Source of the DNA: Actinospica acidithermotolerans
GTDB taxonomy: Bacteria; Actinomycetota; Actinomycetes; Streptomycetales; Catenulisporaceae
Direction: 5' to 3'
DNA length: 57,071 bases
NCBI RefSeq assembly: GCF_018139625.1
Contig: NZ_JAGSOH010000038.1
Coordinates: 1-57,071, forward strand
Positions 8,819 through 54,858 of this stretch are shown in pieces. A program made the position numbers and the translations under genes. A model generated the notes under the pieces. That model worked only from the letters and a program-made list of their open reading frames with translations, was not told the origin of the DNA and made no database searches. The stretch's first letter is position 1, and every line of letters begins with the position of its first letter.

Positions 8819-8820
8819 GA

Positions 8821-8832: not shown

Positions 8833-8857
8833 GATCCAACGAGGGCGAGGCGGACAG

Positions 8858-9184: not shown

Positions 9185-9217
9185 GCCGGCGGTCCGGACG
9201 GCAGGGAAGGGGCGGAC

Positions 9218-29228: not shown

Positions 29229-30263
29229 GTGACCGCCCACCGCCGAAATTCCTCGTCCATCTCCGGTGAAGTCCGGATCGTCTACCGCGCCGACGGCACG
29301 GCCACGGTCAACGGCGCCCCGGTCGTGATCAGGCCCGGCCAGGACATGCGGGACGCCGCGTATCAGGCGGCGGTCGCGCTCGCGGCGGCGTCGGGGGCGA
29401 CCGGGCCGGTCGTGGCGACGAGCATCGAGCCGGACGGCGTGGCGTATCCGGTCACGCTGTACCCGGGCAGGGCGGCGCCGGCCGTCGCGGAGGCGGGCCC
29501 CGCGGGAGCCGGCGCCGCGGGCGCTCTCCACCGGGTTCGTCACGCGTGGTACCGCCCGACCCTGAGCATGGGCTGGATGGCCGCGGCGGCGTGCGCGTGC
29601 GTACTGCTGTCGGTGCTGGCCACGGTGCTGTTGCACGAGGACGGGCCGCCGATCGTGCGGCTGTCGGTGGACACCGAGAACGACCCCACGCGCACCCCGG
29701 CCGCCCAGTCGATCGGCCACGCCATCTCCACCGCCCCCGGCGTGATGAGCACCGAGCGCATCAGGGCGCTGGCGAAGCGGGGCGCCGCGGCCAAGCCGAG
29801 CGCGTCGGCGGCGCCGTCGGCCTCGCAGTCGACGGTCGCCGCGGGCATCGGCGCGCAGCCCACGCCCGGCGTGCCGCTCGGGCCGCAGCCCTCGCCCGGG
29901 ACGATCCCGATCGGCCCGAGCCAGGACCCCGGCGCCTCGCCGTCGGGAGGGACGAAGCGCGTCACCGTCACCGGGCTGACGCTGTCGATGGTCGGCGGCG
30001 ATCAGTCGAATCAGAACATCGCGTACGTCGCCACGGTCACGACGAGCAATTCGGAGCCGTTCACGCTGACGTACACGTATTCCGGGGCCGGCGGCCGCGC
30101 GGCCGTCACCCGGACCGTCCAGCTGTCCGGCAGCACGAACTACGTGGTCGCGAACCTGATCCCGTCCCAGCCGTACTGCGGCGGACCGGTGACGATGACC
30201 GTCTCGACGTCTCCCGCGGCGAAGACCGGCCCGGCGACGGCGACGGCTCAGCCGGGCTGCTGA
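29229..30263 (+). CDS. Hypothetical single-pass membrane protein
   Basis: 344 residues. A cytoplasmic beta-rich N-terminal part (EVRIVYRADGTATVNGAPVV, about residues 14-80) is followed by one membrane helix (about 116-137, GWMAAAACACVLLSVLATVL), a Pro/Ser/Ala-rich linker and an extracytoplasmic Ig-like domain (VTVTGLTLSM, AYVATVTTSN, LTYTYSGAGG) with one or two cysteines. The family is not recognised. The start is GTG at 29229 without a strong ribosome site. It ends 16 bp inside the convergent MFS gene. Confidence 0.75.
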   Translation: MTAHRRNSSSISGEVRIVYRADGTATVNGAPVVIRPGQDMRDAAYQAAVALAAASGATGPVVATSIEPDGVAYPVTLYPGRAAPAVAEAGPAGAGAAGALHRVRHAWYRPTLSMGWMAAAACACVLLSVLATVLLHEDGPPIVRLSVDTENDPTRTPAAQSIGHAISTAPGVMSTERIRALAKRGAAAKPSASAAPSASQSTVAAGIGAQPTPGVPLGPQPSPGTIPIGPSQDPGASPSGGTKRVTVTGLTLSMVGGDQSNQNIAYVATVTTSNSEPFTLTYTYSGAGGRAAVTRTVQLSGSTNYVVANLIPSQPYCGGPVTMTVSTSPAAKTGPATATAQPGC

Positions 30264-31555: not shown

Positions 31556-31580
31556 CGGATCTCCTCCCGCGCGAAATCAC

Positions 31581-31614
31581 TGAGCTTAGCTCAGCATAAC
31601 ACTCTATGCTTAGC
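31581..31614. promoter_or_regulatory. Inverted-repeat operator cluster between two MFS genes
   Basis: TGAGCTTAGCTCA (31581-31593) is a dyad with 5-bp arms; AGCATA-N6-TATGCT spans 31593-31610; the heptamer GCTTAGC occurs at 31584 and 31608. These overlapping dyads in the shared spacer suggest one MarR- or TetR-type regulator for both exporters. No such regulator gene is in the window. Confidence 0.6.
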
Positions 31615-31652
31615 GCTCCTAAGGAATTATCCTCGACACGGGAGGTGCTGTC

Positions 31653-33362
31653 GTGTCCGAGGACCGGTACAAGTGGGTGGCCCTGTCGAACACCACGCTG
31701 GGCATGTTCATGGCCGTGGTGGACGCCTCGATCGTCATCATCTCGCTGCCCGCGATCTTCCGCGGCATCGGACTCGACCCGTTCGCCGCCGGGAACATCA
31801 GCTACCTGCTGTGGATCATCATGGGATACCTGCTGGTCACGGCGGTCCTGGTGGTCACGCTCGGGCGGCTCGGCGACATCCTCGGCCGGGTGCGGATCTA
31901 CAACCTCGGCTTCGTCGTGTTCACCCTGGCCTCGATCGCGCTCTCCTTCGACCCCGCGCACGGCGGCGGGGGCGCGCTCTGGCTGATCGTCTGGCGGCTG
32001 GTGCAGGCCGTCGGCGGCGCGATGCTGATGGCGAACTCGGCGGCGATCATCACCGACGCGTTCCCGGCCGAGCAGCGCGGCATGGCCCTCGGCGTCAATC
32101 AGATCGCGGCGCTGGCCGGGCAGTTCATCGGACTGGTCCTCGGCGGCGTGCTCTCGGTCTGGGACTGGCGCGCGGTGTTCTGGATCAACGTGCCCTTCGG
32201 CGTCTTCGGCACGATCTGGGCCTATCGCAGCCTGCGCGAGGTCGGCGAGCGGCGGCCCGCGAAGATCGACTGGTGGGGCAATCTGACGTTCGCGGGCGGC
32301 CTCGCGCTGCTCCTGGCCGCGATCACGTACGGAATCCAGCCCTACGGCGGGCACTCGATGGGCTGGACGAACCCGTACGTGCTCGGCGGACTGATCGTCG
32401 GCGTCGTGATGCTGATCCTGTTCGGCCTCATCGAGCAGCGCGTGGAGCAGCCGATGTTCCGGCTCTCGCTGTTCCGCAACCGGGCCTTCGCGGCGGGCAA
32501 CGCGGCCGCGCTGCTCGCCTCCGTGGCGCGCGGCGGCATGCAGTTCATGCTGATCATCTGGCTGCAGGGCATCTGGCTGCCGCTGCACGGATACGACTAC
32601 GCGGACACGCCGCTGTGGGCCGGCATATTCCTGCTGCCGCTCACGGCCGGGTTTTTGCTCGCCGGGCCGCTGTGCGGATACCTGTCCGACCGGTACGGCG
32701 TCTTCTACTTCACGACCGGCGGCCTGACGCTCTTCGCGCTCAGCTTCATCGGACTGCTGCTGCTTCCGCTCGATTTCCCGTACTGGGCGTTCGCGCTGCT
32801 GATCACGCTGAACGGATTCGGCTCCGGCATGTTCTCGGCGCCGAACACGTCGGCGATCATGAGCAGCGTCCCGGCGACTCATCGCGGAGCCGCGTCCGGC
32901 ATGCGCTCGACGTTCCAGAACTCGGGCATGTCGCTCTCGATCGGCGTCTTCTTCTCCCTGCTGATCGCGGGTCTGGCCGGCCGCCTTCCCGGCGCGCTCT
33001 ACTCGGGGCTGAGCTCGCAGGGCGTGTCCTCGGCCGCCGCGCACCACGCGGCGCAGCTCCCGGCGGTCTCGACCGTCTTCGCGGCGTTCCTCGGCGCCAA
33101 CCCGATGCAGACGCTGCTCGGCCCGACCGGCGTGCTCGAGACGCTCTCGCCCGCCGCGAGGGCCACGGTCACCGGCAAGACCTTCTTCCCGAACCTGATC
33201 TCCGACCCGTTCCACCACGGCCTGATGATCGTGTTCGCCACGGCCGCCGGAATGGCGCTGCTCGCGGCGCTCGCCTCGATGCTGCGCGGCGCGACGCCCG
33301 CCAAGGACCCGGACGGCCGCTCGGCCGGCGTGCCGCAGGTGCCGGTCACCCGAACGCACTGA
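31653..33362 (+). CDS. MFS transporter, DHA2 (14-TM) family
   Basis: 569 residues with about 14 membrane helices. DHA2/EmrB-QacA features: LGMFMAVVDASIVIISLPAI in helix 1, the GRLGDILGRVRIY loop, LVQAVGGAMLMANSAAIITDAFP and the QIAALAGQFIGLVLGGVLSVWDWR motif C region. Likely proton-driven multidrug efflux. The GTG at 31653 follows GGGAGGT. Shares its upstream region with the MFS gene at 31555. Confidence 0.93.
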   Translation: MSEDRYKWVALSNTTLGMFMAVVDASIVIISLPAIFRGIGLDPFAAGNISYLLWIIMGYLLVTAVLVVTLGRLGDILGRVRIYNLGFVVFTLASIALSFDPAHGGGGALWLIVWRLVQAVGGAMLMANSAAIITDAFPAEQRGMALGVNQIAALAGQFIGLVLGGVLSVWDWRAVFWINVPFGVFGTIWAYRSLREVGERRPAKIDWWGNLTFAGGLALLLAAITYGIQPYGGHSMGWTNPYVLGGLIVGVVMLILFGLIEQRVEQPMFRLSLFRNRAFAAGNAAALLASVARGGMQFMLIIWLQGIWLPLHGYDYADTPLWAGIFLLPLTAGFLLAGPLCGYLSDRYGVFYFTTGGLTLFALSFIGLLLLPLDFPYWAFALLITLNGFGSGMFSAPNTSAIMSSVPATHRGAASGMRSTFQNSGMSLSIGVFFSLLIAGLAGRLPGALYSGLSSQGVSSAAAHHAAQLPAVSTVFAAFLGANPMQTLLGPTGVLETLSPAARATVTGKTFFPNLISDPFHHGLMIVFATAAGMALLAALASMLRGATPAKDPDGRSAGVPQVPVTRTH

Positions 33363-36791: not shown

Positions 36792-39029
36792 ATGGCGATC
36801 ACGGCAACGCAAGACACCACGGTCCCGGCGAGCGAACCGCCGCGGCCGTCACGTTTCCGGCCCTCCCGAGACTGGTTGTTCCCCGCGGACCAACCACGCT
36901 GGGCGAGGCCCGGACTGCTCGCGGTGGCCGCGCTGGCCGCGCTCATCTTCACCTGGGGCGCGTTCCACACGGCCACCAACAACTTCTACGCGGCCGACGC
37001 CCGCAGCATGTCGATGAGCTGGAAGAACTTCCTCTACGGCGCATTCGACCCGGCGGGCTCGGTCACGATCGACAAGCTCTGGGGCTTCCTGTGGCCCCAG
37101 GCGCTGGCGGTCAAGATCTTCGGCTACCACGCGTGGGCACTGGCCCTGCCCGAGGCGATCGAGGGCGTGATCAGCGTCCTGGTCCTCTACCGGCTGGCCC
37201 GGCGCTGGACCGGGCGCAGCGACGTCGCCCTGCTCTCGGCGGGCCTGTTCACGCTGACCCCGATCGTGGCGGCCACGTTCGGCCACTCCGGGCTCGAGGA
37301 CAACGCGCTGACGATGTGCCTGATCCTGGCCACCGACGCGTTCCAGCGCGCGGCGAACGAGGGCCGGCTGCGCTCGCTGGCGCTGTCCGGGTTCTGGATC
37401 GGCATGGCGTTCCAGACGAAGATGGTGCAGGCCTGGACGGTCGTGCCGATCTTCGGCCTGGTGTACCTGATCTGCGCGCCGCACCCGCTGCTCAAGCGGA
37501 TCCGGCACACGCTGGCCTTCGGCGCGGTCACCGCGGTGGCCTCGCTCTGGCTGATGGTCGTCGTGCAGCTGACCCCGGCCGCGGACCGGCCGTTCATCGA
37601 CGGGTCCAACGGGTCGAACAACATCTTCACGATGGTGTTCGACTACAACTTCACCAGCCGCTTCGGCTCGCTCAGCTCGACCACGAGCGGCGGCAGCTTC
37701 GGCGGCGGGGGCAGCGACTGGGGCAAGCTGCTCGGCGCGAGCTTCGCCTCGCAGATCGGCTGGCTCTACCCGCTCGCCCTGATCGCGCTGGTCTTCGGCC
37801 TGATCAAGGCGCGCGGAGCCGGCCGGGCCGACGGCGTGCGCGCGGGCTACCTGATGTGGGGCGGCACGCTCGGCATCACGGCGCTGGCGTTCAGCGCGGG
37901 CACGATCCCGCACTCGCAGTACATGACGGTGCTCGCGCCGGGCCTCGCGGCGCTGGGCGCGGCCGGCATCGTCGGGATGTTCCGGGCCTTCCGGGACGGG
38001 GAGAAGCTGGGCTGGCTGCTGCCGGCGGCCATCGCGGCGACGGTGCTGTGGGCGACGCGGCTCTCGTACGAGAACACCGTGTTCCTCAGCTGGCTGCCGC
38101 CGCTGGTGATCGCGCTCGGCCTGGCCTCGATCCTGCTGCTGATCGCGTACCGGGTGCGCCGGATCGGCAAGGTGCTCGCGGCCGGGATCGTGCTCGGCAC
38201 CGCGGCGATGGTGGCCACGCCCGCGGCCTGGGCGCTGTCCACCTTCGACACCTCGGACGGCTACAACGGCACCTCGATCAACGCGGCGGCCGGCCCGTAC
38301 TCGGGCCAGTTCGGCAGCGCGGGGCGCACCGGCGGGATGAGCGGCGGACCCGGCGGTTCGGGCAGCACGTCCGGCGGCCCCGGCGGCACCGGCCAGATGC
38401 CGGGCGGCTCGTCGAGCGACACCGGCTCCGGCTCGTCGTCCGGCGGGTTGGGCGGCGCGCCGAGCGGCGGCTTCCCCGGCTCGTCCTCGGGCAGCTCCGG
38501 TTCCACCTCGTCGGGCTCGTCGAACAGCGGCGCGCCGAGCGGCGGCTTCCCGGGCTCGTCCTCCAGCGAATCCGGCTCGTCCGGAGCGCCGAGCATGGGC
38601 GGCGGCGGTATGGGCGGCGGAGGCGGCAGCACCCCCGGCGGCAGCGGCAGCACGCTGTCCACGGCCCAGGAGCAGCTGCTGACGTACCTGAAGGCCCATC
38701 AGGGCAGCGCCAAGTACCTGTTCGCGGTGATGAGCTCCGGCGACGCCGAGGACTACATCGCGAACGCCGGCGCCTCGGTCCTGCCGGTCGGCGGATTCAG
38801 CGGCAACAACGGCTACCCCTCGCTGGCGCAGTTCAAGGAGCTGATCGCGAAGGGCGAGCTGAAGTACGTGCTGCTGAGCAGCTCCGGCGGAATGGGCGCG
38901 GGCATGGGCGGCTCGGGCTCCGGCTCGACCTCGGCGATCGAGTCCTGGGTCAAGGCGAACTGCAAGGCCGTCTCGTCCTCGTCCGTCAGCTCGAGCGTCG
39001 GCACGCTGTACGTGTGCTCGTCGAGCTGA
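36792..39029 (+). CDS. ArnT-like glycosyltransferase, GT39 (PMT superfamily)
   Basis: 745 residues, about 11-12 membrane helices in the first 490. The catalytic first loop reads NNFYAADARSMSMSWKNF, then TIDKLWGFLWPQALAVKIFG and GLEDNALTMCLILATDAF, the usual blocks of the bacterial ArnT/YkcB group, which move sugars from polyprenyl-phosphate carriers onto lipids, proteins or wall polymers. Residues about 505-635 are a Gly/Ser-rich low-complexity insert (repeats of GGFPGSSS), followed by a folded external C-terminal domain (EQLLTYLKAHQGSAKYLFAVMS, AGASVLPVGGFSGNN). The ATG at 36792 has no clear ribosome site. Confidence 0.9.
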   Translation: MAITATQDTTVPASEPPRPSRFRPSRDWLFPADQPRWARPGLLAVAALAALIFTWGAFHTATNNFYAADARSMSMSWKNFLYGAFDPAGSVTIDKLWGFLWPQALAVKIFGYHAWALALPEAIEGVISVLVLYRLARRWTGRSDVALLSAGLFTLTPIVAATFGHSGLEDNALTMCLILATDAFQRAANEGRLRSLALSGFWIGMAFQTKMVQAWTVVPIFGLVYLICAPHPLLKRIRHTLAFGAVTAVASLWLMVVVQLTPAADRPFIDGSNGSNNIFTMVFDYNFTSRFGSLSSTTSGGSFGGGGSDWGKLLGASFASQIGWLYPLALIALVFGLIKARGAGRADGVRAGYLMWGGTLGITALAFSAGTIPHSQYMTVLAPGLAALGAAGIVGMFRAFRDGEKLGWLLPAAIAATVLWATRLSYENTVFLSWLPPLVIALGLASILLLIAYRVRRIGKVLAAGIVLGTAAMVATPAAWALSTFDTSDGYNGTSINAAAGPYSGQFGSAGRTGGMSGGPGGSGSTSGGPGGTGQMPGGSSSDTGSGSSSGGLGGAPSGGFPGSSSGSSGSTSSGSSNSGAPSGGFPGSSSSESGSSGAPSMGGGGMGGGGGSTPGGSGSTLSTAQEQLLTYLKAHQGSAKYLFAVMSSGDAEDYIANAGASVLPVGGFSGNNGYPSLAQFKELIAKGELKYVLLSSSGGMGAGMGGSGSGSTSAIESWVKANCKAVSSSSVSSSVGTLYVCSSS

Positions 39030-43782: not shown

Positions 43783-45948
43783 TTACCCGGCGGTCCGCCG
43801 GAGGTGGAAGATCCCGGCCGCGTAGTCCCCGGTCAGGCCGGTGACCAGGCCGCGGTGCCGCAGCAGCGCCCCGCTGTATTCGACCCCTGATTCCAAATCC
43901 CGGTAACGGGCGCCGGCCTCCAGCGCCGCCAGCGGCAGCGGTCCGGGCGCCGCCGCGAACTCCTGCGCGCCGAGCCAGGCGAGCACCACCGCCTCGTCGC
44001 CGAGCACGTACTGCACGGCGGTCAGGCCGGCGCCCGGCGGACGCAGCCGGTAGAGCGCGCCGTGCTGCACGACGTGCCGGATCTCCTTGTAGCGGGCCAC
44101 GAGTTCGCGCGCCTCGTCGAGCTCGGCGTCGCTCCACTCGACGAGGTTGCCGCCGAGCCCGAGCAGCCCGGCCATCGCGCTGACGAAGCGGAACCTCAGC
44201 GGCGTGACCCGGCCGGTGATGGCGTTCGGGCTGTCGGTGACCCACGCGGAGGCGACCCGGGCCGGGTGCAGCTGGCTCAGTCCGTGCTGGATGCGCAGCC
44301 GGTCGAGCGGATCGGTGTTGTCCGAGACCCACACCATGTCGGTGCGCGCGAGCACGCCGAGGTCGATCCGGCCGCCGCCCGCCGAGCAGGACTCGAACGC
44401 GACGTCCGGATGCGCCGCGCGCAGCCGGTCGAGCAGCCCGTAGAACCCGTACACGTGCTCGAGCCCGAGCCGCTCCGGGTACGGCTCGCCGGGCCAGCCG
44501 GGTTCGGAGAAGCTGCGGTTGAAGTCCCACTTCACGTAGTCGATCGGGGCCGAGCCGAGCAGCGCGTCGAGCTGCTCGAAGAGGTGGTCGCGTACGGCGG
44601 GCAGGCCGAGGTTGAGCACGAGCTGGTTGCGCCACTCGGAGCGGCGCCGGCCCGGATAGTGCTGCGCCCACTCGGGGTGCGCGCGGTAGAGGTCGCTGTC
44701 CGGGTTGACCATCTCCGGCTCGACCCAGATGCCGAACTGCATACCGAGCCCGTGCACGTGCTCGGCCAGCGGCCGCAGCCCGTCCGGGAACTGCTCGGCC
44801 GACGGCGTCCAGTCGCCGAGCCCGGCCCGGTCGTCGCGCCGTGAGCCGAACCACCCGTCGTCCACCACGAACAGCTCCACGCCGAGCCCCGCGGCGCGGT
44901 CGGCCAGCTTGCGCTGACTCGCCTCGGAGACGTCGAAATGCGTGGCCTCCCAGGAGTTGTAGAGCACCGGCCGCAGCCGATCGGCCTTGGGCACGACATA
45001 AGAAAGCTGATACGCGTGCCACGCCCGGCTAGCGCCCCCGAACCCGTCCTCCGAGTAGAGCGCGGCGAAGACAGGGCTCTCATACACATCCCCCGGCGCC
45101 AACTCGACGAGTCCCGATTCGTCGCCGCCGGCACCGCCCGTGACCTGCACCCGCCCCATCGGCAGCAGCTGCACCGCGAACCGCCAGTTCCCCGACCACG
45201 CCAGCGCCCCGCTCCACACCTGCCCCTGCTCCTCGGCCGCCGAACCGTCGTCCAGCGCGAACCAGGGCAGGTGGTTGTGCGAGGTGTGCCCATGCCGCGA
45301 GCCGTACACATGCTCGCCGTGCAGCAAGGTCCCGCGCTCCAGTCGCGACTCCCCCACGAACCGCCCGTGCAGCTCCGAAAGCCGCCACTCGTCCCGCAAC
45401 GGCAGGGTCCACGCCGCCGCATCGGCCCGCAGCAACTCGACGGGCGCCGGCGCCGTCGCGCGAGCTGCAACGGTCACCCAGCGCTCGACGAGGTCGAATT
45501 CCGCACGCAGCCGGTAGTGCAGCGATATCTCCAGCGAGAGAAGCTCATCCACGAACCGCAGATGCAGCTCGTCCGCGGCGGCGTCCGAGCCGGCTCCGGC
45601 CTCCGTCCCGGCCCCCGGTCCCGCCTGAGCCCCGGTCTCAAATCCCGCGAAGGTCCACTCAGTGCCCCGGATCACCGAGTCCCTCGCACGCCCGCGCACC
45701 GACAGCGCGGGACGGGCGAACCGCAGGCCGCCCTCCGTCGGGTACTCCTCGTACCCGTCGGCGGCGCCCTCGAAGGCGTGCGCCTGCGGGACCGGCTCGG
45801 CGGCCAGCGCCTCCGCGTCGGCGAGCGAGATCCGCGGACCCCAATGCAGGTTGAGCAGCCCGTCGTCCGGAGTGAGTCCGATCGCATAGCTGGAACGGAT
45901 TCCGGACAGCAGCCAGAAGCGGCCGGACGGACCGGTCTCGATCGGCAT
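43783..45948 (-). CDS. Alpha-galactosidase, GH36
   Basis: 721 residues, standard length for bacterial GH36 enzymes. The N-terminal beta-supersandwich is followed by the TIM barrel: WEATHFDVSE, WFGSRRDDRAGLGDW, WVEPEMVNPDSDLYR, the nucleophile Asp475 in YVKWDFNRS, SCSAGGGRIDLG and acid/base Asp543 in VSDNTDPLD, then a beta-rich C-terminus. No signal peptide: acts on imported alpha-galactosides such as melibiose or raffinose. GAGGAG precedes the ATG. A LacI-type palindrome lies 22 bp upstream. Confidence 0.95.
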   Translation of the reverse strand: MPIETGPSGRFWLLSGIRSSYAIGLTPDDGLLNLHWGPRISLADAEALAAEPVPQAHAFEGAADGYEEYPTEGGLRFARPALSVRGRARDSVIRGTEWTFAGFETGAQAGPGAGTEAGAGSDAAADELHLRFVDELLSLEISLHYRLRAEFDLVERWVTVAARATAPAPVELLRADAAAWTLPLRDEWRLSELHGRFVGESRLERGTLLHGEHVYGSRHGHTSHNHLPWFALDDGSAAEEQGQVWSGALAWSGNWRFAVQLLPMGRVQVTGGAGGDESGLVELAPGDVYESPVFAALYSEDGFGGASRAWHAYQLSYVVPKADRLRPVLYNSWEATHFDVSEASQRKLADRAAGLGVELFVVDDGWFGSRRDDRAGLGDWTPSAEQFPDGLRPLAEHVHGLGMQFGIWVEPEMVNPDSDLYRAHPEWAQHYPGRRRSEWRNQLVLNLGLPAVRDHLFEQLDALLGSAPIDYVKWDFNRSFSEPGWPGEPYPERLGLEHVYGFYGLLDRLRAAHPDVAFESCSAGGGRIDLGVLARTDMVWVSDNTDPLDRLRIQHGLSQLHPARVASAWVTDSPNAITGRVTPLRFRFVSAMAGLLGLGGNLVEWSDAELDEARELVARYKEIRHVVQHGALYRLRPPGAGLTAVQYVLGDEAVVLAWLGAQEFAAAPGPLPLAALEAGARYRDLESGVEYSGALLRHRGLVTGLTGDYAAGIFHLRRTAG

Positions 45949-46066: not shown

Positions 46067-47146
46067 GTGCCGAGCACCGACGCCGGGGACTTCCAGCGAC
46101 AGCCGGCAATCGGCGCACGCGCAAGCGCCCGCGACTCCCAACCGCAACCGCCGATCAGCGCGAGCACCGACGTCCGCGGCTTCCAGCGGCAGCCGCTGAT
46201 CGGGGCGAGCGGGGATCTGGTGGCCGACACGGAGGCGTGGCTCGCCTCGGAACCGCTCGGCGCGCTGATCACCGAATTCGGCGGCGACCCGGCCGACTAC
46301 ACCCGGCACGGCCGCCCCGACCTGCCGCTCCCGGCCCGGCTGGCCGCCCTCGACACGTTCACCGAGCGCTGGGACACGCGCCGCGGCCTCGAACGCAACC
46401 TCGCCGCCGAACTCGACCTCACCGACGCCCAGCAGACGTTGGTCATCGACGCGTCGAACGCCCTCGGCCTGCGCGGCGACCCGCCACGGCACCGCCACTA
46501 CGACCACATGCTCATGCTCGGCGGCCTCATCCGCGCCTGCGTAGCCCGCCCCTCGTACGCCGCGCACATCATCCGCGAACGCGAGATCACCGCCGGCGAG
46601 GTCACCACCCTCGGCGCCCACCGCCCCTTCGTCGGCAACGAGTTCGAGCAGGCGGCGGAACTCGGCTGGGGCGACCTCACCGAGGAGTACGAGGCCCTCG
46701 ACGCCGGTACCCGCCGCGCCTTCGAGCTCGGCGAGCCCGAGTTCGAGGAGGGCGAGCGCTTCGACGACATAGGAAGCACCTGGGGCGTCAAGCACTACCG
46801 CACCGCCGACGGCCTCCCCGTCCGCGTCGTCGCCGCCCCTTCCTCCGAACCCGGCACAAGGCGTGCTAATTCAGCCGATTCCTACAAGTTCTTCGCCGAC
46901 CACGTGGCCAACCTCAAGCGCGGCGAACGCCTCCTGCTGATCAGCACCGCCATCTACGTCCTCCCCCAGCACGTCGCCGCCCTGCGCATCCTCGCGCTCC
47001 CCTACGGCGTCGAGGTGGACACCATCGGCGGCAAGCCCACCGAGCGTCCCCGTATCGCCCTCTCGCACTACTCCGCCACCAAGTATCTCCTCGAGGTCCG
47101 CAGCACGGTCAGGGCCCTGGCCCAATTGGTCTCGACGCCGGCCTAA
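46067..47146 (+). CDS. Conserved hypothetical protein (possible DUF218/YdcF-like fold)
   Basis: 359 residues. The first 50 are three imperfect repeats (DFQRQPAIGA, DSQPQPPISA, GFQRQPLIGA). Then follow TLVIDASNALGLRG, HYDHMLMLGGLIRACVARPSYA, TTLGAHRPFVGNEFEQAA and, near the end, ERLLLISTAIYVLPQHVAALRILALPYGVEVDTIGG. The GG-x-x-R block and the late STAIYVLPQHVAA helix recall the DUF218 (ElyC/SanA/YdcF) fold, but this is a tentative reading. The GTG at 46067 follows GAGAGGA. It shares the LacI operator region with the alpha-galactosidase gene. Confidence 0.65.
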   Translation: MPSTDAGDFQRQPAIGARASARDSQPQPPISASTDVRGFQRQPLIGASGDLVADTEAWLASEPLGALITEFGGDPADYTRHGRPDLPLPARLAALDTFTERWDTRRGLERNLAAELDLTDAQQTLVIDASNALGLRGDPPRHRHYDHMLMLGGLIRACVARPSYAAHIIREREITAGEVTTLGAHRPFVGNEFEQAAELGWGDLTEEYEALDAGTRRAFELGEPEFEEGERFDDIGSTWGVKHYRTADGLPVRVVAAPSSEPGTRRANSADSYKFFADHVANLKRGERLLLISTAIYVLPQHVAALRILALPYGVEVDTIGGKPTERPRIALSHYSATKYLLEVRSTVRALAQLVSTPA

Positions 47147-47215
47147 GTATTACCCGGGCCAATGCGCCGAATAGCGTCATTCGGCCGCGCGGGCAATCCG
47201 TAGGCCGAATAGTAC

Positions 47216-47257
47216 AAACGGGGCATTTTGCTCTAATTTTTCGCTAATGACCCGTTT
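47216..47257. promoter_or_regulatory. AT-rich inverted-repeat region, candidate promoter of the polysaccharide operon
   Basis: AAACGGG (47216-47222) and CCCGTTT (47251-47257) flank an unusually AT-rich stretch (GGGCATTTTGCTCTAATTTT onward). This is the least GC-rich spot in the region and lies 140-180 bp before ugd. Confidence 0.5.
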
Positions 47258-47289
47258 TGCCCGCCTTGGCTCGCCGACACCATGACAGC

Positions 47290-47326
47290 CTGGTCGGCAC
47301 GGGATCATCCCGTGCCTGGAACCAGG
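47290..47326. promoter_or_regulatory. Long dyad in the ugd leader
   Basis: GGCACGGGAT-C-ATCCCGTGCC (47296-47316) has perfect 10-bp arms, flanked by CCTGGT and ACCAGG, forming an extended stem. It lies about 70 bp before the ATG of ugd, where it could be an operator, an mRNA hairpin or an attenuator. Confidence 0.6.
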
Positions 47327-47395
47327 GGCACCGCGGACACGGAGTCGCCCGTCCTCGGCTGGTTCCATAACAGACGACAGAGACGGGTGGCGTTC

Positions 47396-48763
47396 ATGCG
47401 TGTTTCCGTGATCGGATGCGGCCACTTAGGTGCGCCGCACGCTGCTGCGATGGCAGAGCTCGGGCATGAGGTGATCGGCGTCGAGCTCGACAAGGACAAG
47501 TGCGCGGCTCTCAGCGCCGGGATCGCGCCCTTCTACGAGGACGGGTTCGGCGAGCTGCTGGCCAAGCACGTCGGGTCCGGAAGGCTGCGTTTCAGCACCG
47601 ACCTCGCCGAGGCGGCGGACTTCGCCGAAATGCACTTCCTCGCGGTGGGCACCCCGCTGCGGGAGGACGGCTGCGGCTACGACATCAGTTGTCTTACCGG
47701 CGTTGTGGAGTCCCTGGCGCCCCTGCTGTGGAGGCCGTGCACCATCGTCGGCAAGAGCACCATCACGATCGGCACGGTGGCGGCGCTTCAGCGGATCATC
47801 GACGCCCGGTCGACGATCGGCGAGATCGAGCTGGTCTGGAACCCGGAGTTCCTGCGCGAAGGCCACGCCGTGCAGGACAGTCTCAGCCCGGACCGGATCG
47901 TGGTGGGCGTGAGCTCCGCAGCCGCCCAGAAGGCGATGGAGGAGGTATACGCGCCCATCCTCGCCCGCGGCGTGGAGATGATCGTCACCGATCCGGCGAC
48001 CGCCGAGCTCGTCAAATCCGCCGCCAACGCCTTCCTGTGCACCAAGATCTCATATATCAATGCCCTGTCTGAAGCGTGCAGCCTGGTCGATGCCGACGTG
48101 AACACCGTCGCGCACGCGATCGGGATCGACGAGCGGATCGGGCACGCCGGCATGCGGCCCGGCATCGGCTACGGCGGCGGCTGCCTCCCCAAGGATGTGG
48201 CCGCCTTCTCGCATCGCCTCGGGGAGTTGGGGGCCGATCGGGCCCGGGCGCTGCTGGAATCGGTCCGGGACGTCAACGCGGCCCGCATCGCCATCGCGGT
48301 CGAGCTGATCGAGCGGGCCCACGGCGGTCCGCTCGACGGCGTGCCCGTCGCCTTCCTCGGCGCCAGCTTCAAGGCCGGGACGAGCGACCTGCGCCACTCG
48401 CCGGCGCTCGCGCTGGTCGACAGGCTCATCGCGCTCGGCGCGCGGCCGGTCATCCACGACCCCGAGGCTATCCCGGGCCTCCGGCGGCAGCGGCCCGACC
48501 TGAGGTGCGCGGACACGGTGGAAGAAGCGCTCACCGGCGCCGACGTGGTGGTCATCGCGACCGAGTGGCCGCAGTTCACCAAGGACGCCTCGCTGCCGGC
48601 CCTGGCCAGCGCCGCGGCGCGGGGCCGCGTTCTCGTGGATGTGCGCAACGCGGTCGAGGCCGACCCGTGGTCGGCGAACGGCTGGCACGTCTGGCAGCTC
48701 GGCCGCCCGGCTCTGCACCCGCAGCACGGCATCGCCGCTCCGGCGGGCGCCGGAGCTCGCTGA
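47396..48763 (+). CDS. ugd: UDP-glucose 6-dehydrogenase
   Basis: 455-residue nucleotide-sugar dehydrogenase that oxidises UDP-glucose to UDP-glucuronate with two NAD. Rossmann start MRVSVIGCGHLGAPHAAAMAELGHEV; the middle domain has WNPEFLREGHAVQDSLSPDRIVVG; the catalytic Cys263 lies in GIGYGGGCLPKD; the C-terminal domain has GASFKAGTSDLRHSPAL. The loop GCGHLG replaces the common GxGYVG. The ATG at 47396 fits the family; the frame is open back to 47282, through the leader dyad. It supplies the substrate for the next gene. Confidence 0.93.
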   Translation: MRVSVIGCGHLGAPHAAAMAELGHEVIGVELDKDKCAALSAGIAPFYEDGFGELLAKHVGSGRLRFSTDLAEAADFAEMHFLAVGTPLREDGCGYDISCLTGVVESLAPLLWRPCTIVGKSTITIGTVAALQRIIDARSTIGEIELVWNPEFLREGHAVQDSLSPDRIVVGVSSAAAQKAMEEVYAPILARGVEMIVTDPATAELVKSAANAFLCTKISYINALSEACSLVDADVNTVAHAIGIDERIGHAGMRPGIGYGGGCLPKDVAAFSHRLGELGADRARALLESVRDVNAARIAIAVELIERAHGGPLDGVPVAFLGASFKAGTSDLRHSPALALVDRLIALGARPVIHDPEAIPGLRRQRPDLRCADTVEEALTGADVVVIATEWPQFTKDASLPALASAAARGRVLVDVRNAVEADPWSANGWHVWQLGRPALHPQHGIAAPAGAGAR

Positions 48764-48878
48764 GCGCCGCCCGACCACACGAACCAAGCGATTTTCAAGC
48801 CTACGTATTTATGCCTGCCCTGGGACGGCACCGCGCCCCGGGCACAGATCATGACGGGTACTGACGCTGGAGGTTGGA

Positions 48879-49937
48879 ATGCGGGTCGTGGTGACGGGCG
48901 GCGCGGGTTTTCTCGGGTCGCATCTGTGTGAAGCCCTGGTTCGGCGCGGCGATGCCGTGGTCTGCGCCGATGATCTCTCGACGGGACGGCTGGAGAACAT
49001 CGAGCACCTGCGGCACCTCGGGTGCGAGTTCGTGCGGGCGGATGTGACGATGCCGCTCGAGGTGTCCGGCACCGTCGACGCGGTCGCCCATCTGGCCAGC
49101 CCGGCTTCACCGCCGGACTACCTGCGGCTGCCGTTGGAGACACTCGCGGTCGGCAGCCGCGGGACGGAGAACGCATTGCGCCTGGCGACGCAGCACGGGG
49201 CGCGTTTCGTTCTCGCCTCGACCAGCGAAGTGTACGGCGACCCCCTCGTGCATCCCCAGCACGAGGAGTACTGGGGCAACGTCAACCCGATCGGTCCGCG
49301 AAGCGTCTACGACGAGGCGAAGCGCTATGCGGAGGCGGTCACCACGGCGTACCGGGGGCGTCGCGCGAACACCGGAATCCTGCGCATCTTCAACACGTAC
49401 GGTCCGCGGATGCGCCCGTGCGACGGACGCGTCGTGTCCAGCTTCATCGTCCAGGCGCTGAGCGGCGAGCCGCTGACCGTGTACGGAAGCGGCGATCAGA
49501 CGCGCAGCTTCTGCTACGTCGACGATCTGGTCCGCGGCCTGGTCGCCATGATCGATTCCGCGGAGGCCGGACCGCTCAACATCGGCAATCCGCAGGAACT
49601 GACGGTGCGGGAACTCGCCCAGCTCGTCCTGGAGATCACCGGATCGTCATCGGCCGTCGAATACCACCCCCTCCCGCAGAACGATCCGACGCGGCGGCGC
49701 CCCGTCGTCACCCGGGTGCGGGACGCCCTCGGCTGGTCGCCGGAGGTTTCGATCGAGGAGGGCCTGCGGCGAACCGTGCAGTGGTTCGCCGCCCGTCCGG
49801 ACGCGGTCGCGGCGGCCGCGCTCGCCCTGCGCGGCGGCCAGTCGGGAGCGGACCGCGTCCGCCCGGCCGCCGACCAGCTGCCGGTGCAGGCTCAGCCGTT
49901 GCCCGCCACCGAGCAGGCCGCCTCGGCCCAGGTCTGA
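48879..49937 (+). CDS. uxs: UDP-glucuronate decarboxylase (UDP-xylose synthase)
   Basis: 352-residue extended SDR. VVVTGGAGFLGSHLCEALV binds NAD; HLASPASPPDYLRLPLETL, ASTSEVYGDPLVHPQ, GPRSVYDEAKRYAEA (Tyr144, Lys148) and LRIFNTYGPRMRPCDGRVVSSF are the hallmark blocks of UXS rather than of plain epimerases. It converts UDP-glucuronate to UDP-xylose. A C-terminal Ala/Gln-rich tail of about 45 residues is extra. GGAGG precedes the ATG. The GT2 gene starts 4 bp after its stop. Confidence 0.92.
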   Translation: MRVVVTGGAGFLGSHLCEALVRRGDAVVCADDLSTGRLENIEHLRHLGCEFVRADVTMPLEVSGTVDAVAHLASPASPPDYLRLPLETLAVGSRGTENALRLATQHGARFVLASTSEVYGDPLVHPQHEEYWGNVNPIGPRSVYDEAKRYAEAVTTAYRGRRANTGILRIFNTYGPRMRPCDGRVVSSFIVQALSGEPLTVYGSGDQTRSFCYVDDLVRGLVAMIDSAEAGPLNIGNPQELTVRELAQLVLEITGSSSAVEYHPLPQNDPTRRRPVVTRVRDALGWSPEVSIEEGLRRTVQWFAARPDAVAAAALALRGGQSGADRVRPAADQLPVQAQPLPATEQAASAQV

Positions 49938-49941
49938 CGTC

Positions 49942-51783
49942 ATGACGCGATTGGACGCGATCCCGGCCCAGCCGTCCTTCGAACTCTGCCCGGAAGAGCA
50001 CATCCGGGCGGTCTCGCGCGGCACGGTGGTCCGGGTCCGGCCCGGCGGCCCGGAATTCGGGCCGCCGAGGCCGAAGCGGGTCGTCGACGGGTCCATCTTC
50101 GTGGCGACGCTCAAGGCCACCGACCGCGTGGCCGTCGGAGCGCTGTCCGCGGCCTGGCTGGTCTGCTTCATCGCGTTCTGGTCCTGGTGGCTCGAACCGG
50201 CCCACCGGGTCGGAACCGCCGCGTTCACCGTGAACAGCGCGCTGCTGCTCTACTTCACCGGAGTTCCCGGCTACTTCCTGGCTGCGGTCGCCCATCTGCG
50301 CCACGTCGATCCGGCCATCGAGGTGCCGCCGCTGCGCATCGCCTTCGTCGTCACCAAGGCGCCCTCCGAGTCCTGGCCCACGGCCCGGAACACCCTCATG
50401 GCGATGCTGGCCCAGGACTGCTCGGCCGCCTTCGACGTCTGGCTGTGCGACGAGGCCCCCGCCGACGAGGTGCGTGCCTGGTGCGCGGAGCACGGCGTGC
50501 GGCTGTCCACCCGGTCGGGAGTCGCCGAATACCATCGGGCCACCTGGCCCAGGCGCACCAAGTGCAAAGAGGGGAACCTGGCGTACTTCTACGACCATTG
50601 GGGCTACCGGGACTACGACGTGGTCGCCCAACTCGACTGCGACCACGTGCCCGCCCCGACCTACCTGTCCGCCATGGTCCGCCCTTTCACCGACCCGTCG
50701 GTGGGCTACGTCGCCGCACCCAGTGTCTGCGACCTGAACGCCGCCAACTCCTGGGCCGCTCGCGGGCGCCTGCACCGGGAGGCGACCTGGCACGGTCCGA
50801 TCCAACTCGGCCACAACCTCGGCCTCGCGCCCATCTGCATCGGCTCGCACTACGCGGTTCGGACCGCGGCGCTCGGCGAGATCGGCGGCCTCGGTCCGGA
50901 GCTGGCCGAGGACTTCTCCACCACCTTCCTGCTCAACTCGGCCGGCTGGCACGGGTGCTTCGCGATCGACGCGATCGCGCGCGGGGACGGGCCGCTCACG
51001 TTCGCCGACATGCTCACCCAGGAGTTCCAGTGGTCGCGCAGCCTGACCACGCTGATGTGCGACCTCTTCCCGCCCCACCTGAAGCGGATGAGTCCGGGGC
51101 TGGCGCTCCGCTTCGTCTACGCCCTCTGCTATTACCCGTTGCTGCTGGTGTCCACGGTCGCCGGCCTCGCCCTGCCCGTCATCTCGGCGGTCACCGGCAT
51201 CACCTGGATGAAGGTCAACTATCTGGCGTTCCTGGCGCACTTGAGCAGCCTCTCGGTGTGGGTGATCCTTCTGGTGCTGCTGCTCCGGCGGCGCGGACTG
51301 ATGCGCCCGCAGTCCGTGCCCGTGATCAGCTGGGAGAACTGGCTGTTCACGTTCACCCGCTGGCCGTACGTCGGTTTGGGCGTCCTGAGCGCCACCATCC
51401 AGAGGTTCCGGCCCAAGCAGCTGACGTTCCGCGTGACACCCAAAGCGGGCAGCGGGGTCCAAACGCTGCCCGCACGCCTTCTCGCGCCCTACGCGATCAT
51501 CGCCGCGGCGCTGTCGCTGGCCGCGTACGCCGGGGAGCAGTTCGGACGGCACACTCCGGGATACATCCTGCTGTGCGTCCTGGGCGCCGCGTGCTACTGC
51601 GTCGTCGGGCTCGCCGTACCGCTGCTGCACATCAGAGAGGCCAGAAGGTCCTTCGGACTGACCCTCGGCGCGGCGTTCAGAACCGCGGGGGGCGCGATCG
51701 GGATCGGGATCGCCGCACTAGCCCCCCTCGCACTGGCCGCCGCGGACTACCCGGCCTACGGGATGAGGGTTCTGGGCTGGTGA
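49942..51783 (+). CDS. Cellulose-synthase-like GT2 glycosyltransferase
   Basis: 613-residue membrane processive-type glycosyltransferase. Two helices (about residues 60-110) precede the GT-A domain: FVVTKAPSES, LCDEAPAD (first Asp), VAQLDCDHVPAP (DxD), ELAEDFSTTFLL (TED-like acid) and QEFQWSRSLTTLM (in place of QxxRW). Four to six further helices end the protein. The whole plan is that of cellulose or hyaluronan synthase-like enzymes, which polymerise and extrude a beta-glycan. Donors could be UDP-glucose, UDP-xylose or UDP-glucuronate made by its neighbours. Confidence 0.9.
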   Translation: MTRLDAIPAQPSFELCPEEHIRAVSRGTVVRVRPGGPEFGPPRPKRVVDGSIFVATLKATDRVAVGALSAAWLVCFIAFWSWWLEPAHRVGTAAFTVNSALLLYFTGVPGYFLAAVAHLRHVDPAIEVPPLRIAFVVTKAPSESWPTARNTLMAMLAQDCSAAFDVWLCDEAPADEVRAWCAEHGVRLSTRSGVAEYHRATWPRRTKCKEGNLAYFYDHWGYRDYDVVAQLDCDHVPAPTYLSAMVRPFTDPSVGYVAAPSVCDLNAANSWAARGRLHREATWHGPIQLGHNLGLAPICIGSHYAVRTAALGEIGGLGPELAEDFSTTFLLNSAGWHGCFAIDAIARGDGPLTFADMLTQEFQWSRSLTTLMCDLFPPHLKRMSPGLALRFVYALCYYPLLLVSTVAGLALPVISAVTGITWMKVNYLAFLAHLSSLSVWVILLVLLLRRRGLMRPQSVPVISWENWLFTFTRWPYVGLGVLSATIQRFRPKQLTFRVTPKAGSGVQTLPARLLAPYAIIAAALSLAAYAGEQFGRHTPGYILLCVLGAACYCVVGLAVPLLHIREARRSFGLTLGAAFRTAGGAIGIGIAALAPLALAAADYPAYGMRVLGW

Positions 51784-51834
51784 GTCCCACCCGTCCGCGA
51801 TTCCGTTCCCGCACAAGCAGGAGGCAACATCGTC

Positions 51835-52878
51835 ATGACCGAATCCGCGACTGTCCTGGTCACCGGAGGCGCCGGTTTCATCGGAAGCCACACCTGTGTC
51901 GATCTGCTGGAGCACGGCTACGAAGTGATCGTCGTCGACGATCACTCCAACAGCTCCCCCGGCGCGCTGCACCGCGTGGAGAAGGTCGCCGGACGTCCGC
52001 TCCTCGCGACCTACCCGCTGGACGTGCGCGATGAAGCGTCGCTGGACGGCGTCTTCCGCGACCATCGCATCGACGCCGTCGTCCACTTCGCGGCGAAGAA
52101 GGCCATCGGCGAGTCCATCGGGATTCCGCTCGACTACTACTCCATCAACGTCTCCGGGTTGATCTCACTGCTGCGCGCCATGCACCGGCACGAGGTGCAC
52201 CGGCTCGTTTTCTCCTCGTCATGCTCGATCTACGGTGACGCACGTCCGATCCCGCTCGGCGAGCAGGAGCCGCCGCGTCCCACGAATCCGTATTCGCGCT
52301 CGAAGTTGATGTGCGAGGAGATTCTCGCCGACGCGTGCCGGGCGTGGCCGGAGCTGACCGTCTTCTCGCTGCGCTACTTCAATCCGGCCGGAGCCCATAC
52401 CAGCGGCCTGCTCGGCGAGGATCCGCGAGGGGTGCCGAACAACGTCATGCCGTACGCGATGCAGGTCGCGATCGGACGGCGCGAAAGACTCAGCATCTTC
52501 GGCGGCGACTACAGCACACCGGACGGAACGGCGGTTCGCGACTACATCCATGTGATGGACGTCGCGGACGGCCATCGCGAGGCCCTTGAACGCCTGTATC
52601 CCGAAGCATCCTCGGTCCATCCCGGGCTGCACGTCCTCAACCTCGGCACCGGGGTCGGGACGTCGGTTCTCGAGCTGGTGGAGTCCATGAGCTCGGCCTG
52701 CGGGCAGCGGCTGCCGTACGAGATCGTCGGCCGACGGGCGGGAGACGTCGCCCATCTCGTCGCCGATCCCACGGCCGTCGCGCGGGAGTGGGGCTGGCAC
52801 ACGACCCGGGACCTGTCCGCCATGTGCGCCGACGCGTGGCGGTTCCAGCAGCTCAACCCGAACGGCTATCAGGACTGA
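51835..52878 (+). CDS. galE: UDP-glucose 4-epimerase family (GalE or UDP-xylose 4-epimerase)
   Basis: 347-residue NAD-dependent epimerase. TVLVTGGAGFIGSHTCVDLL, VVDDHSNSSPGAL, HFAAKKAIGESIGIPLDYY, SSSCSIYGD, NPYSRSKLMCE (Tyr153, Lys157) and LRYFNPAGAHTSGLLGEDP identify the GalE family. Because it follows Ugd and UXS it might act on UDP-xylose, giving UDP-arabinose, rather than on UDP-glucose; the sequence alone does not decide. GGAGG precedes the ATG. The last 13 codons and the stop are repeated twice downstream in the 95-bp array. Confidence 0.92.
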   Translation: MTESATVLVTGGAGFIGSHTCVDLLEHGYEVIVVDDHSNSSPGALHRVEKVAGRPLLATYPLDVRDEASLDGVFRDHRIDAVVHFAAKKAIGESIGIPLDYYSINVSGLISLLRAMHRHEVHRLVFSSSCSIYGDARPIPLGEQEPPRPTNPYSRSKLMCEEILADACRAWPELTVFSLRYFNPAGAHTSGLLGEDPRGVPNNVMPYAMQVAIGRRERLSIFGGDYSTPDGTAVRDYIHVMDVADGHREALERLYPEASSVHPGLHVLNLGTGVGTSVLELVESMSSACGQRLPYEIVGRRAGDVAHLVADPTAVAREWGWHTTRDLSAMCADAWRFQQLNPNGYQD

Positions 52879-52904
52879 TCGCTTGAACTTCCCGCTCAGG
52901 GCGC

Positions 52905-52926
52905 GGGGGCCGGCTGGCCGGCCCCC
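52905..52926. terminator. Bidirectional hairpin, copy 1
   Basis: GGGGGCCGGC-TG-GCCGGCCCCC, perfect 10-bp stem, 27 bp after the galE stop. Confidence 0.75.
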
Positions 52927-52999
52927 GGCCGTGGCGGTTCCAGCAGCTCAACCCGAACGGCTATCAGGACTGATCGCTTGAGCTTCCCGCTCAGGGGGC

Positions 53000-53021
53000 G
53001 GGGGCCGGCTGGCCGGCCCCC
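53000..53021. terminator. Bidirectional hairpin, copy 2
   Basis: Second copy of the same 10-bp stem, identical to copy 1. Confidence 0.75.
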
Positions 53022-53085
53022 GGCCGTGGCGGTTCCAGCAGCTCAACCCGAACGGTTATCAGGACTGATCGCTTGAACTTCCCGC

Positions 53086-54858
53086 TCAGGGCGCGGGGGC
53101 GGGCTGGCCGGCCCCCGGCGTGGTGGCGGAGCCCGGAGCCGCGCCGAAGTAGTCCATCGGGCCGATGTCCACCGCGAACCGGGCCTGCAGGTCCAGGCCG
53201 CTGCCCGTGATCGGCGAACCGGTCCGCGGCGCCGGCAGCGGCGTGCGGGTCGGGTCCCAGGCGGGCGCCGCGACCAGCACCAGGCCGGGATCGAGATCCC
53301 AGCCGACGAGCCTTGCCGCGGCCGTTTCCTGACCGGTCCGCCCGGCCCAGGCGGCCAGCGAGTGGAAGGACCTTGCGCCCCAGCCGACGAGCCACGTTCC
53401 CGTGTCCCCGACGTGGTAGTCGTTGCCCTGGAGCAGGACCTGGGCCGGCGAGAAGCGATAGGAGGCGGCGATCATCTCGCTGCCGGAGGTCTCGAAGATG
53501 TTGTCGCGGATCGTCACGCCCCGCAGGCCGTCCCCGAGTCGCAGCACGGGGGCGGCGTCGGCATCGCCGTGGGTCAGCACCGTGTTGTGGTAGACGCTCG
53601 CGTCGATGATCCGGCCCACCAGCGCGAAGCTCGCGTAGAGCGGAAACTTCCGGGAGTCGTCCCGGCTGACGTTGAAACGCACGGTGTTGCGCGCGAATGC
53701 GTTGTTGTCAGCTCCGGTGTAGAGCAGGAAGCCGGGACCGTCGTTGTCGTGGGAGTAGTTGTACTGCGCGACCGAGTCGGACACGTTCTGGTCCAGGTCG
53801 AATCCACCGCCATCGGTATACCCGCCGGAGTAGTTGTCGTACGACACGTTGTGCTGGATCACCACGCCGGTGGAGTCGTAGACCCAGATGCCGACCGGCC
53901 CTTCGGGCGCGTCGCAGTACTTGCCGTTGCCGTGTGCGACCGATCGTTCGACGATCGCGTCGCGGACACTGCCGAGGTCGATCCCGTTGCCGGTGTTGTG
54001 CAGATGGTCGAGCGGGTTGCCGAGATTCGCGAACGCCTGAACGCCTGAGACGAGCACGTTCTCGTTGGCGTATTGCGGCGAGGCCGCGTCGAAGTGCGGG
54101 CCGAAGCTGCTCAGTCCGCTGTCCCGGTTGCCGTGCAGCACACTGTCCGTCACCTGCACGTCGCGGAAACCGGCGCCGACCGAAGCACCGCCCATCGACA
54201 CCCCCACGCGGAAACCGGATACGTCCACATCGGTCACCGAAACGTGCTGCAGCTTGGGGCCCTTGACCAGGTCGCTGAAAAGCGCGATACCGCTGACGGT
54301 GCGGTCGGCCGGCGTCCCGCCGGTCAGAACCAGGCTCCCGATATCGATGCCGGCCGTGTCGTAGACGTCCACTCCCGGGCCGCCGGCGGCGGCGATGGTA
54401 GCCCGGCCGGAGCCGTACGAGCCCACGATCACCGGGTCCCGCGGATCACCGGCCTCGCCGCGATGGAAGGTCAGGCTTCCGGTGAAACGCGCGCCTCCCT
54501 GGAGAAGCAGCCGTTCACCCGGCTTGAACGCATGCTTGTCCGCCTGCCTGAGGGTGCGCCACGCGCTCTCCGGCGAGGTGCCCGCGGCGGAATCACTCCC
54601 GTCCGGCGACAGGTAGAACGTGCGGGGACCGAAGAGGCGGTCGCCCGTGCTGAACGCCACCAGCGGTCCGCGCGGCCACAGCGCGCGGTAGCCCCCCACG
54701 GCCAGAAGGGCCGCGACGAGTACGGCGGCCAGCGCAATCCGCCGAGAGGGTTCCCGCCGCCGGACGGCCGCCGCCGGCGGCGCCGCAGGCGATCGCGGGG
54801 GCTCTGCTTCCAGCAGCCGGGCCGCCGTCGAATTCCGCTCGCTCCCCGTCTCGCCCAT
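53086..54858 (-). CDS. Membrane-anchored right-handed beta-helix protein
   Basis: 590 residues. A cytoplasmic start of about 35 residues, one membrane anchor (RIALAAVLVAALLAVGGYRAL, about 40-60), then TFYLSPDGSDSAAGTSPESAWRTLRQAD, the usual opening of pectate-lyase-superfamily parallel beta-helix proteins, and many coils rich in N, G, D and V (HNTGNGIDLGSVRDAIVERS, DNYSGGYTDGGGFDLD, IIDASVYHNTVLTHGDADAA). Members are lyases, epimerases or glycosidases for polysaccharides. AGGAGG precedes the ATG at 54858. Convergent with galE; probably trims or modifies the polymer made by the GT2. Confidence 0.9.
   Translation of the reverse strand: MGETGSERNSTAARLLEAEPPRSPAAPPAAAVRRREPSRRIALAAVLVAALLAVGGYRALWPRGPLVAFSTGDRLFGPRTFYLSPDGSDSAAGTSPESAWRTLRQADKHAFKPGERLLLQGGARFTGSLTFHRGEAGDPRDPVIVGSYGSGRATIAAAGGPGVDVYDTAGIDIGSLVLTGGTPADRTVSGIALFSDLVKGPKLQHVSVTDVDVSGFRVGVSMGGASVGAGFRDVQVTDSVLHGNRDSGLSSFGPHFDAASPQYANENVLVSGVQAFANLGNPLDHLHNTGNGIDLGSVRDAIVERSVAHGNGKYCDAPEGPVGIWVYDSTGVVIQHNVSYDNYSGGYTDGGGFDLDQNVSDSVAQYNYSHDNDGPGFLLYTGADNNAFARNTVRFNVSRDDSRKFPLYASFALVGRIIDASVYHNTVLTHGDADAAPVLRLGDGLRGVTIRDNIFETSGSEMIAASYRFSPAQVLLQGNDYHVGDTGTWLVGWGARSFHSLAAWAGRTGQETAAARLVGWDLDPGLVLVAAPAWDPTRTPLPAPRTGSPITGSGLDLQARFAVDIGPMDYFGAAPGSATTPGAGQPAPAP
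53095..53116. terminator. Bidirectional hairpin, copy 3
   Basis: Third copy with one arm mismatch (GGGGGCGGGC), because it codes for the tail of the beta-helix protein. Confidence 0.65.

Follow-up and report, generated by a model that had tools for sequence, protein, structure and literature searches.

A likely ApsS-type, synthase-dependent pentose exopolysaccharide locus with a distinct actinobacterial gene set in Actinospica acidithermotolerans

The described system closest to the locus analysed here is found in Sinorhizobium meliloti. According to an excerpt of the source, the genes uxs1-uxe-apsS-apsH1-apsE-apsH2 form an operon for an arabinose-containing polysaccharide (PMC7902896), and excerpts of three papers describe that this polysaccharide is raised by cyclic di-GMP (c-di-GMP) through CuxR (PMC7902896, PMC9495663, PMC8546604). 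The UDP-xylose synthase (UXS) and the UDP-xylose 4-epimerase of strain 1021 were characterised, as given in a title cited in PMC5607165. A second comparison is offered by BgsA, the mixed-linkage beta-glucan synthase of S. meliloti. In an excerpt of PMC5567048, BgsA is a GT2 enzyme without a PilZ domain that carries FxVTxK and makes glucan, and TED and QxxRW are marked in its alignment. Here, we describe a locus on contig NZ_JAGSOH010000038.1 of Actinospica acidithermotolerans (assembly GCF_018139625.1), whose genome comprises 7.9 Mb in 422 contigs. The window, which is the whole stretch of DNA analysed, was 57,071 nucleotides long. Genes for a UDP-glucose 6-dehydrogenase (Ugd), a UXS, a membrane GT2 synthase, a GalE-type UDP-sugar 4-epimerase and a beta-helix protein were clustered at 47396-54858, and all five reading frames were intact. 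We consider it likely that this is an ApsS-type, synthase-dependent pentose exopolysaccharide locus with a distinct actinobacterial outfit, in which Ugd, UXS, GalE and GT2 are joined by a GH136-like protein. An earlier note on this DNA had proposed the five-gene cluster, and domain scans agreed with the names it gave. The start it gave for the cluster, position 47147, is the first base after the gene before it and not the start of Ugd, which lies at 47396.

The evidence obtained by computation consisted of the gene identities, the folds, the conserved gene company, and the homology shared by UXS and GT2 with the arabinose-polysaccharide genes of S. meliloti. In the pSymB locus of S. meliloti 2011, the genes encoded an AraC regulator, UXS, epimerase, GT2, DUF995, GH26 and DUF995 proteins, and this order matched uxs1-uxe-apsS-apsH1-apsE-apsH2. 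The copy in strain SM11 had the order UXS-GalE-GT2-DUF995-GH26-DUF995. The identity to the 2011 genes was 52% for UXS, 42% for the epimerase and 46% for GT2 (591 columns). A tblastn search against plasmids gave rhizobial GT2s as the best places, at about 50%. The polymer of the rhizobial system was reportedly composed solely or mainly of arabinose (Schaper et al. 2019). UXS, the GalE-type epimerase and GT2 were homologous in both systems, each system had a glycosidase-like partner gene, and the rhizobial GT2s (L023 and L024; L numbers are our handles for loci) carried QEFQW and FxVTPK as the locus GT2 did. However, the actinobacterial locus had Ugd and the order UXS-GT2-GalE, and its GH136-like beta-helix protein stood in place of the GH26 protein and two DUF995 proteins. 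These differences were followed in 41 actinobacterial loci, which include the window, and in 40 other loci, of which 38 were alphaproteobacterial by title, one belonged to Acidimicrobiales (L063) and one to Gracilibacteria (L102). In tblastn searches (E at most 1e-5), GH26 was found in none of the 41 actinobacterial loci, in contrast to 39 of the 40 others and three rhizobial loci. DUF995 proteins were matched only in the three rhizobial loci L023, L024 and L105, with none in the 41. The CuxR-like AraC regulator was likewise matched by tblastn only in these three, and in none of the 41 or the 40. The locus probably works like the S. meliloti system, but it should not be classed as an aps operon, because GH26, DUF995 and CuxR were sought and not found. 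Such pentose polymers had been called little described in the earlier note. This was only partly right, since an arabinose-containing polysaccharide from the homologous operon is in print, as excerpts show (PMC7902896, PMC9495663, PMC8546604). A limited literature search gave no publication on a locus of this kind from an actinobacterium.

On the plus strand, the order was Ugd (47396-48763, 455 amino acids), UXS (48879-49937, 352 amino acids), GT2 (49942-51783, 613 amino acids) and GalE (51835-52878, 347 amino acids). The beta-helix gene (53086-54858, minus strand, 590 amino acids) was convergent with GalE. A longer start of Ugd at ATG 47282 is possible. The gap was 115 bases between Ugd and UXS, and the gaps of only 4 bases between UXS and GT2 and 51 bases between GT2 and GalE fit a single transcript for these three genes. 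The Pfam matches were UDPG_MGDP_dh_N for Ugd (1.4e-50), Epimerase for both UXS and GalE, Glyco_trans_2_3 for GT2 (1.7e-15) and Beta_helix for the beta-helix protein (1.9e-11). As to the absence of Wzx/Wzy and flippase genes stated in the earlier note, no polysaccharide flippase or Wzy polymerase was among the listed Pfam matches of the 42 scanned open reading frames of the window, out of 52 called. Outside the scan were nine frames of 75-233 amino acids and one of 344 amino acids (29229-30263). Two MFS transporters were identified by the scan at 30248-33362.

In the case of GT2, the AlphaFold2 (AF2) model had a pLDDT of 92.0 and a pTM of 0.91. The best seven structural matches were all BcsA (top Z 25.3, rmsd 3.9, 489 aligned residues), and the matches after these were an archaeal mannosyltransferase and plant CesA; a BcsA fold was also supported by Foldseek. 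This BcsA fold supported the synthase-dependent polymerase that had been proposed from the DNA. The fold, the DxDH motif (DCDH, 232-235), the ED base motif (AED, 322-324) and the gating-loop motif (FRVTPK, 496-501) were common to BcsA and the locus GT2. In contrast to BcsA, the locus GT2 had glutamine for arginine in QxxRW (QEFQW, 360-364), no PilZ domain was among its Pfam matches, and its companions were pentose-donor enzymes. At the QxxRW site, Q-E-x-Q was present in 91 of 91 homologues and was followed by tryptophan in 90 of the 90 rows extending that far. The gating motif F-x-[VI]-T-x-K was kept in 89 of the 90 rows reaching it. The 91 rows include at least four duplicates (L001, L004, L005 and L007) and one row ending after QEFQ. 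However, arginine was kept in the ten GT2s of the order that ranked next (27-34% identity); these had QQxRW and also FVVTPK. Because glutamine was found in all homologues and arginine in these ten, the exchange marks a separate synthase family. The motif was partly selected, since MLTQEFQW was one of six seeds in the genome-collection search; QxxQW was also shown by 11 loci fetched without those seeds (L004-L012, L023 and L024), of which L004, L005 and L007 were pieces of seeded loci. BgsA was similar to the locus GT2 as a PilZ-less synthase with FxVTxK, but differed in its TED and QxxRW motifs and its glucan product. An ordinary cellulose synthase was rejected by QxxQW, by the PilZ result and by the company of UXS. 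Another GT2 of the same genome (L003, contig C55) had QQYRW and lay on a stretch that also matched the S. meliloti GH26 protein.

The precursor enzymes were then considered. Ugd carried the catalytic motif GGGCLPKD (Cys263) and scored 372 bits with TIGR03026 (cut-off 190); the NDP-sugDHase model exceeded its cut-off. UXS was compared with solved structures by phmmer, and the four best matches were human UXS1 entries (1.8e-100 to 1.2e-99), with the next entry at 2.7e-39. Its residues T115, E117, Y144, K148 and R273 stood at UXS active-site columns, which were conserved in all 74 family rows; the matching residues of human UXS1 have catalytic roles. Judged from its sequence, UXS was unambiguous and should decarboxylate, because human UXS1 was the best match and the active-site columns were conserved. 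That it acts as an epimerase only was rejected, as the four best solved relatives were all UXS1 and the decarboxylase arginine was present in all 74 rows. Together, Ugd and a true UXS supported the proposed route from UDP-glucose through UDP-glucuronate to UDP-xylose. The epimerase showed SSSCSIYG at 127 and the pair Y153/K157. Its substrate, UDP-xylose or UDP-glucose, cannot be told by sequence from that of an ordinary GalE. The proposed UDP-arabinose step was plausible by homology to the aps operon, but the enzyme itself did not distinguish it. The genome had one other Ugd and three further GalE-like genes (E at most 1e-20), so the locus Ugd and GalE can be available for a dedicated role. 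The locus Ugd was at best about 50% identical to the full-length Ugds of sister loci, and the second Ugd of the genome, which lies on contig C338 only a few genes away from purK, was 61-65% identical to its eight best matches among them. By sequence comparison, the locus Ugd is of a different lineage from the sister-locus Ugds, and the other Ugd of the genome (L111/L120 comparison) is nearer to those.

For the beta-helix protein, a 40-row profile gave five matches below 1e-4, all lacto-N-biosidases of LnbX type (best 2e-23), followed by an alginate epimerase at 0.003. Its AF2 model had a pLDDT of 87.8, and Foldseek ranks 1-6 were lacto-N-biosidases of the LnbX/GH136 kind. In VIA-align, LnbX was first with a Z of 31.9, an rmsd of 2.4 Å and 22% identity over 444 aligned residues, which is nearly the whole length. 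Alginate epimerases came close behind, with a Z of 30.3 over a shorter length of about 322 residues. D349 and D356 did not vary in any of the 40 rows and were seven residues apart. The LnbX Asp pair, which presumably comprises the catalytic residues, is also seven apart; hhalign placed it on G351 and N358, two residues off D349/D356. The spacing of D349/D356 equals that of the catalytic pair D568/D575 of ErLnb136, and the helical partner domain or subunit of GH136 enzymes is named GH136I, both according to an excerpt of PMC7335108. The locus protein therefore resembled LnbX in profile and fold, but it is encoded within a polymer locus and carries a membrane anchor, and its Asp pair is aligned with uncertainty. 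It had a hydrophobic helix at 40-56, where the model confidence was low. Among its relatives, a lipobox-like motif was found in 19 of 40 (loose pattern) and a hydrophobic stretch before the domain in 35 of 40. These stretches suggested that the protein is probably outside the cell, on the membrane. The trimming role assigned to it in the earlier note was supported by the GH136-like profile and fold, but the catalytic residues were not aligned with certainty, and trimming is a candidate function. That the gene is a chance neighbour was rejected, because it was found in 38 of the 41 actinobacterial loci, on either strand.

The company of GT2 was counted from the best match per open frame within 9 kb, a count that misses one Ugd (L044). 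Of the 41 actinobacterial loci, 38 had the beta-helix gene, 36 had UXS, 36 had GalE and 33 had Ugd, or 34 when L044 is added. Of the 40 alphaproteobacterial and other loci, 38 had UXS, 35 had GalE and 39 had a GH26 relative, and a relative of the beta-helix protein was not found near GT2 in any of them. One genome-collection scan covered the best 80 of 82 relatives. The gene association is not chance, because the set recurs around GT2 in the 41 actinobacterial loci. When the called neighbours of 40 actinobacterial loci were clustered by blastp, no further family occurred in more than 11 loci. The next most frequent families were GGDEF-EAL (11 loci), a TetR regulator (nine loci, one member scanned) and an antisense frame (nine loci), which in the examples listed lies over the region of GalE and is likely to be spurious. 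In two Nocardiaceae-type loci (L056 and L058), GT2 was flanked by two beta-helix genes, with no UXS, GalE or Ugd in the available stretch. The L102 contig, Candidatus Gracilibacteria by title, had a 37% GT2 relative together with a GH26 relative, a combination like that in alphaproteobacteria; this could be the result of transfer or mis-binning.

In both the GT2 and the UXS trees, the actinobacterial loci were on one side and the alphaproteobacterial and other rows opposite, with full local support in each. The non-actinobacterial side of the GT2 tree also included three QxxRW outgroup rows (L014, L016 and L017), L063 and L102. Nine loci (duplicates or near-copies) were excluded from the trees, L002 and L003 were left out of the GT2 tree, and rows with less than 70% query cover were not used. 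The window GT2 paired with that of Micromonospora sicca (63% identity, support 95, both long branches) rather than with the GT2 of Actinospica durhamensis. This pairing and the distinct Ugd lineage may be read as signs of transfer and separate recruitment. The distribution of GT2 was patchy. Among 60 relatives, it was detected in ten, one of them the genome itself (E below 1e-200); another of the ten (G009) had an internal stop. In a sample of 396 genomes of the phylum, it was detected in one (E at most 1e-90), which was its own.

Based on these results, we infer a scheme for the donor sugar, the epimerase substrate, the product, the linkage and the role of the beta-helix protein. Ugd would convert UDP-glucose to UDP-glucuronate, UXS would decarboxylate it to UDP-xylose, and the GalE-type epimerase would convert UDP-xylose to UDP-L-arabinose in the pyranose form. 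The membrane GT2 would polymerise the pentose and export the chain via its own channel. The membrane-anchored GH136-like protein would act on the nascent polymer outside the membrane. Since GT2 would be an inverting enzyme on UDP-beta-L-arabinopyranose, alpha-L-arabinopyranosyl bonds would be expected. Several observations weighed against this scheme. The locus epimerase cleared both NCBI GalE cut-offs (TIGR01179, 391.5 bits, cut-off 262.3; PRK10675, 406 bits, cut-off 394). In the epimerase tree, the rhizobial-type epimerases had their own side and the locus epimerase was not specifically joined to them, while another GalE of the same genome (L107) sat nearest to that side. GalE was absent near GT2 in five of the 41 actinobacterial loci (L048, L056, L058, L083 and L103) and in five of the 40 others. 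UXS was present without GalE in L048 and L083, both also with Ugd, and in L079, L081, L084 and L093 of the 40. UXS was absent in five of the 41 (L026, L044, L056, L058 and L103), among them the locus of Micromonospora sicca (L026), which holds the GT2 nearest to that of the window. Loci without GalE or UXS count against a fixed pathway, and some of these stretches end at contig ends. In addition, QxxQW in place of QxxRW could mean altered chemistry, and to our knowledge no product of such a locus is known from any actinobacterium.

The GalE cut-offs lead to another explanation, in which the locus encodes an ordinary GalE acting on UDP-glucose/UDP-galactose and the chain made by GT2 contains galactose or glucose, with pentose or glucuronate as a minor part. 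It was also favoured by the solved GH136 enzymes, which are lacto-N-biosidases active on galactose/N-acetylglucosamine sugars. However, UXS and Ugd, present in 36 and 33 of the 41 loci, would be of little use without a pentose donor, and three further GalE-like genes were available in the genome. The homologous operon also gives an arabinose-containing polymer in the excerpt of PMC7902896. We therefore regard a mixed polymer as unlikely. A bacterial xylan is less likely still. In that case, GT2 would take UDP-xylose directly and the epimerase would merely balance the pool, which is in line with the loci that have UXS and no nearby GalE (4 of the 40 and 2 of the 41). Against it, 36 of the 41 actinobacterial and 35 of the 40 other loci had GalE, and the S. 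meliloti product is reported to contain arabinose, according to excerpts of PMC7902896, PMC9495663 and PMC8546604.

The BcsA fold and F-x-[VI]-T-x-K would also be given by an ordinary cellulose or mixed-linkage glucan synthase lying beside nucleotide-sugar genes by chance. This was contradicted by QxxQ throughout the 91 homologues as opposed to QxxRW in the ten next-best GT2s, by the company of UXS in two phyla, and by the lack of a PilZ match in the Pfam scan. In addition, GT2 was closer to the S. meliloti GT2 (46%) than to the ten next-best GT2s (27-34%). We consider such a synthase very improbable. The pentose exopolysaccharide locus of ApsS type was thus preferred. A further-reaching form of it is put forward tentatively, as something we rather doubt than expect: a pentose-specific QxxQW synthase family would make an L-arabinopyranan, a pentose counterpart of galactan, in two phyla, a different glycosidase would have been recruited in each phylum (GH26 in one, GH136-like in the other) for editing one kind of polymer, and within actinobacteria a Ugd of their own would have been recruited more than once.

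A possible link to c-di-GMP was examined. By tblastn, 15 loci had a relative of a large PAS-GGDEF-EAL protein (11 by clustering); all 15 were actinobacterial, and four members were confirmed by Pfam. In 10 of the 15, the gene started no more than 400 bases from where the beta-helix gene ended. These ten were Streptomyces-type loci (L025, L027, L030, L034, L038, L042, L046, L050, L055 and L060); the gene was further off in the other five, three of them Pseudonocardia. Its presence was in two parts of the GT2 tree and needed 4 changes (15 yes, 19 no, 6 truncated loci omitted). However, homologues occurred in 23 of the 60 relatives, 16 of them without GT2, the two genomes of family f2 with GT2 lacked a homologue at that threshold, and no GGDEF-EAL gene was near the window locus. 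Control of the locus by c-di-GMP was thereby weakened and is a possible lead only.

A promoter and terminator scan gave 0 promoter-like sites and 1 terminator-like site, with 2.7 expected. A GH36 alpha-galactosidase-like gene (43783-45948, minus strand) lay upstream, and the gene between it and the locus (46067-47146) had no Pfam match. A PMT/YkcB-like membrane glycosyltransferase was encoded at 36792-39029, about 8 kb upstream of the locus. In the frame at 7802-11332 (1176 amino acids), pirin was the C-terminal part. Its long N-terminal part may be non-coding in that frame, because the codon-position GC pattern was unusual.

Pentose polymers from cellulose-synthase-like enzymes are hardly characterised, and the locus offers a nearly complete set of few genes in a Gram-positive host, where the polymer has no outer membrane to cross. 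The family-wide replacement of arginine by glutamine affects the motif of processive GT2 enzymes that has been studied most, so that donor choice would be testable by mutation. The results also show that a wide branch of the rhizobial arabinose-polysaccharide system exists in Streptomyces and its relatives.

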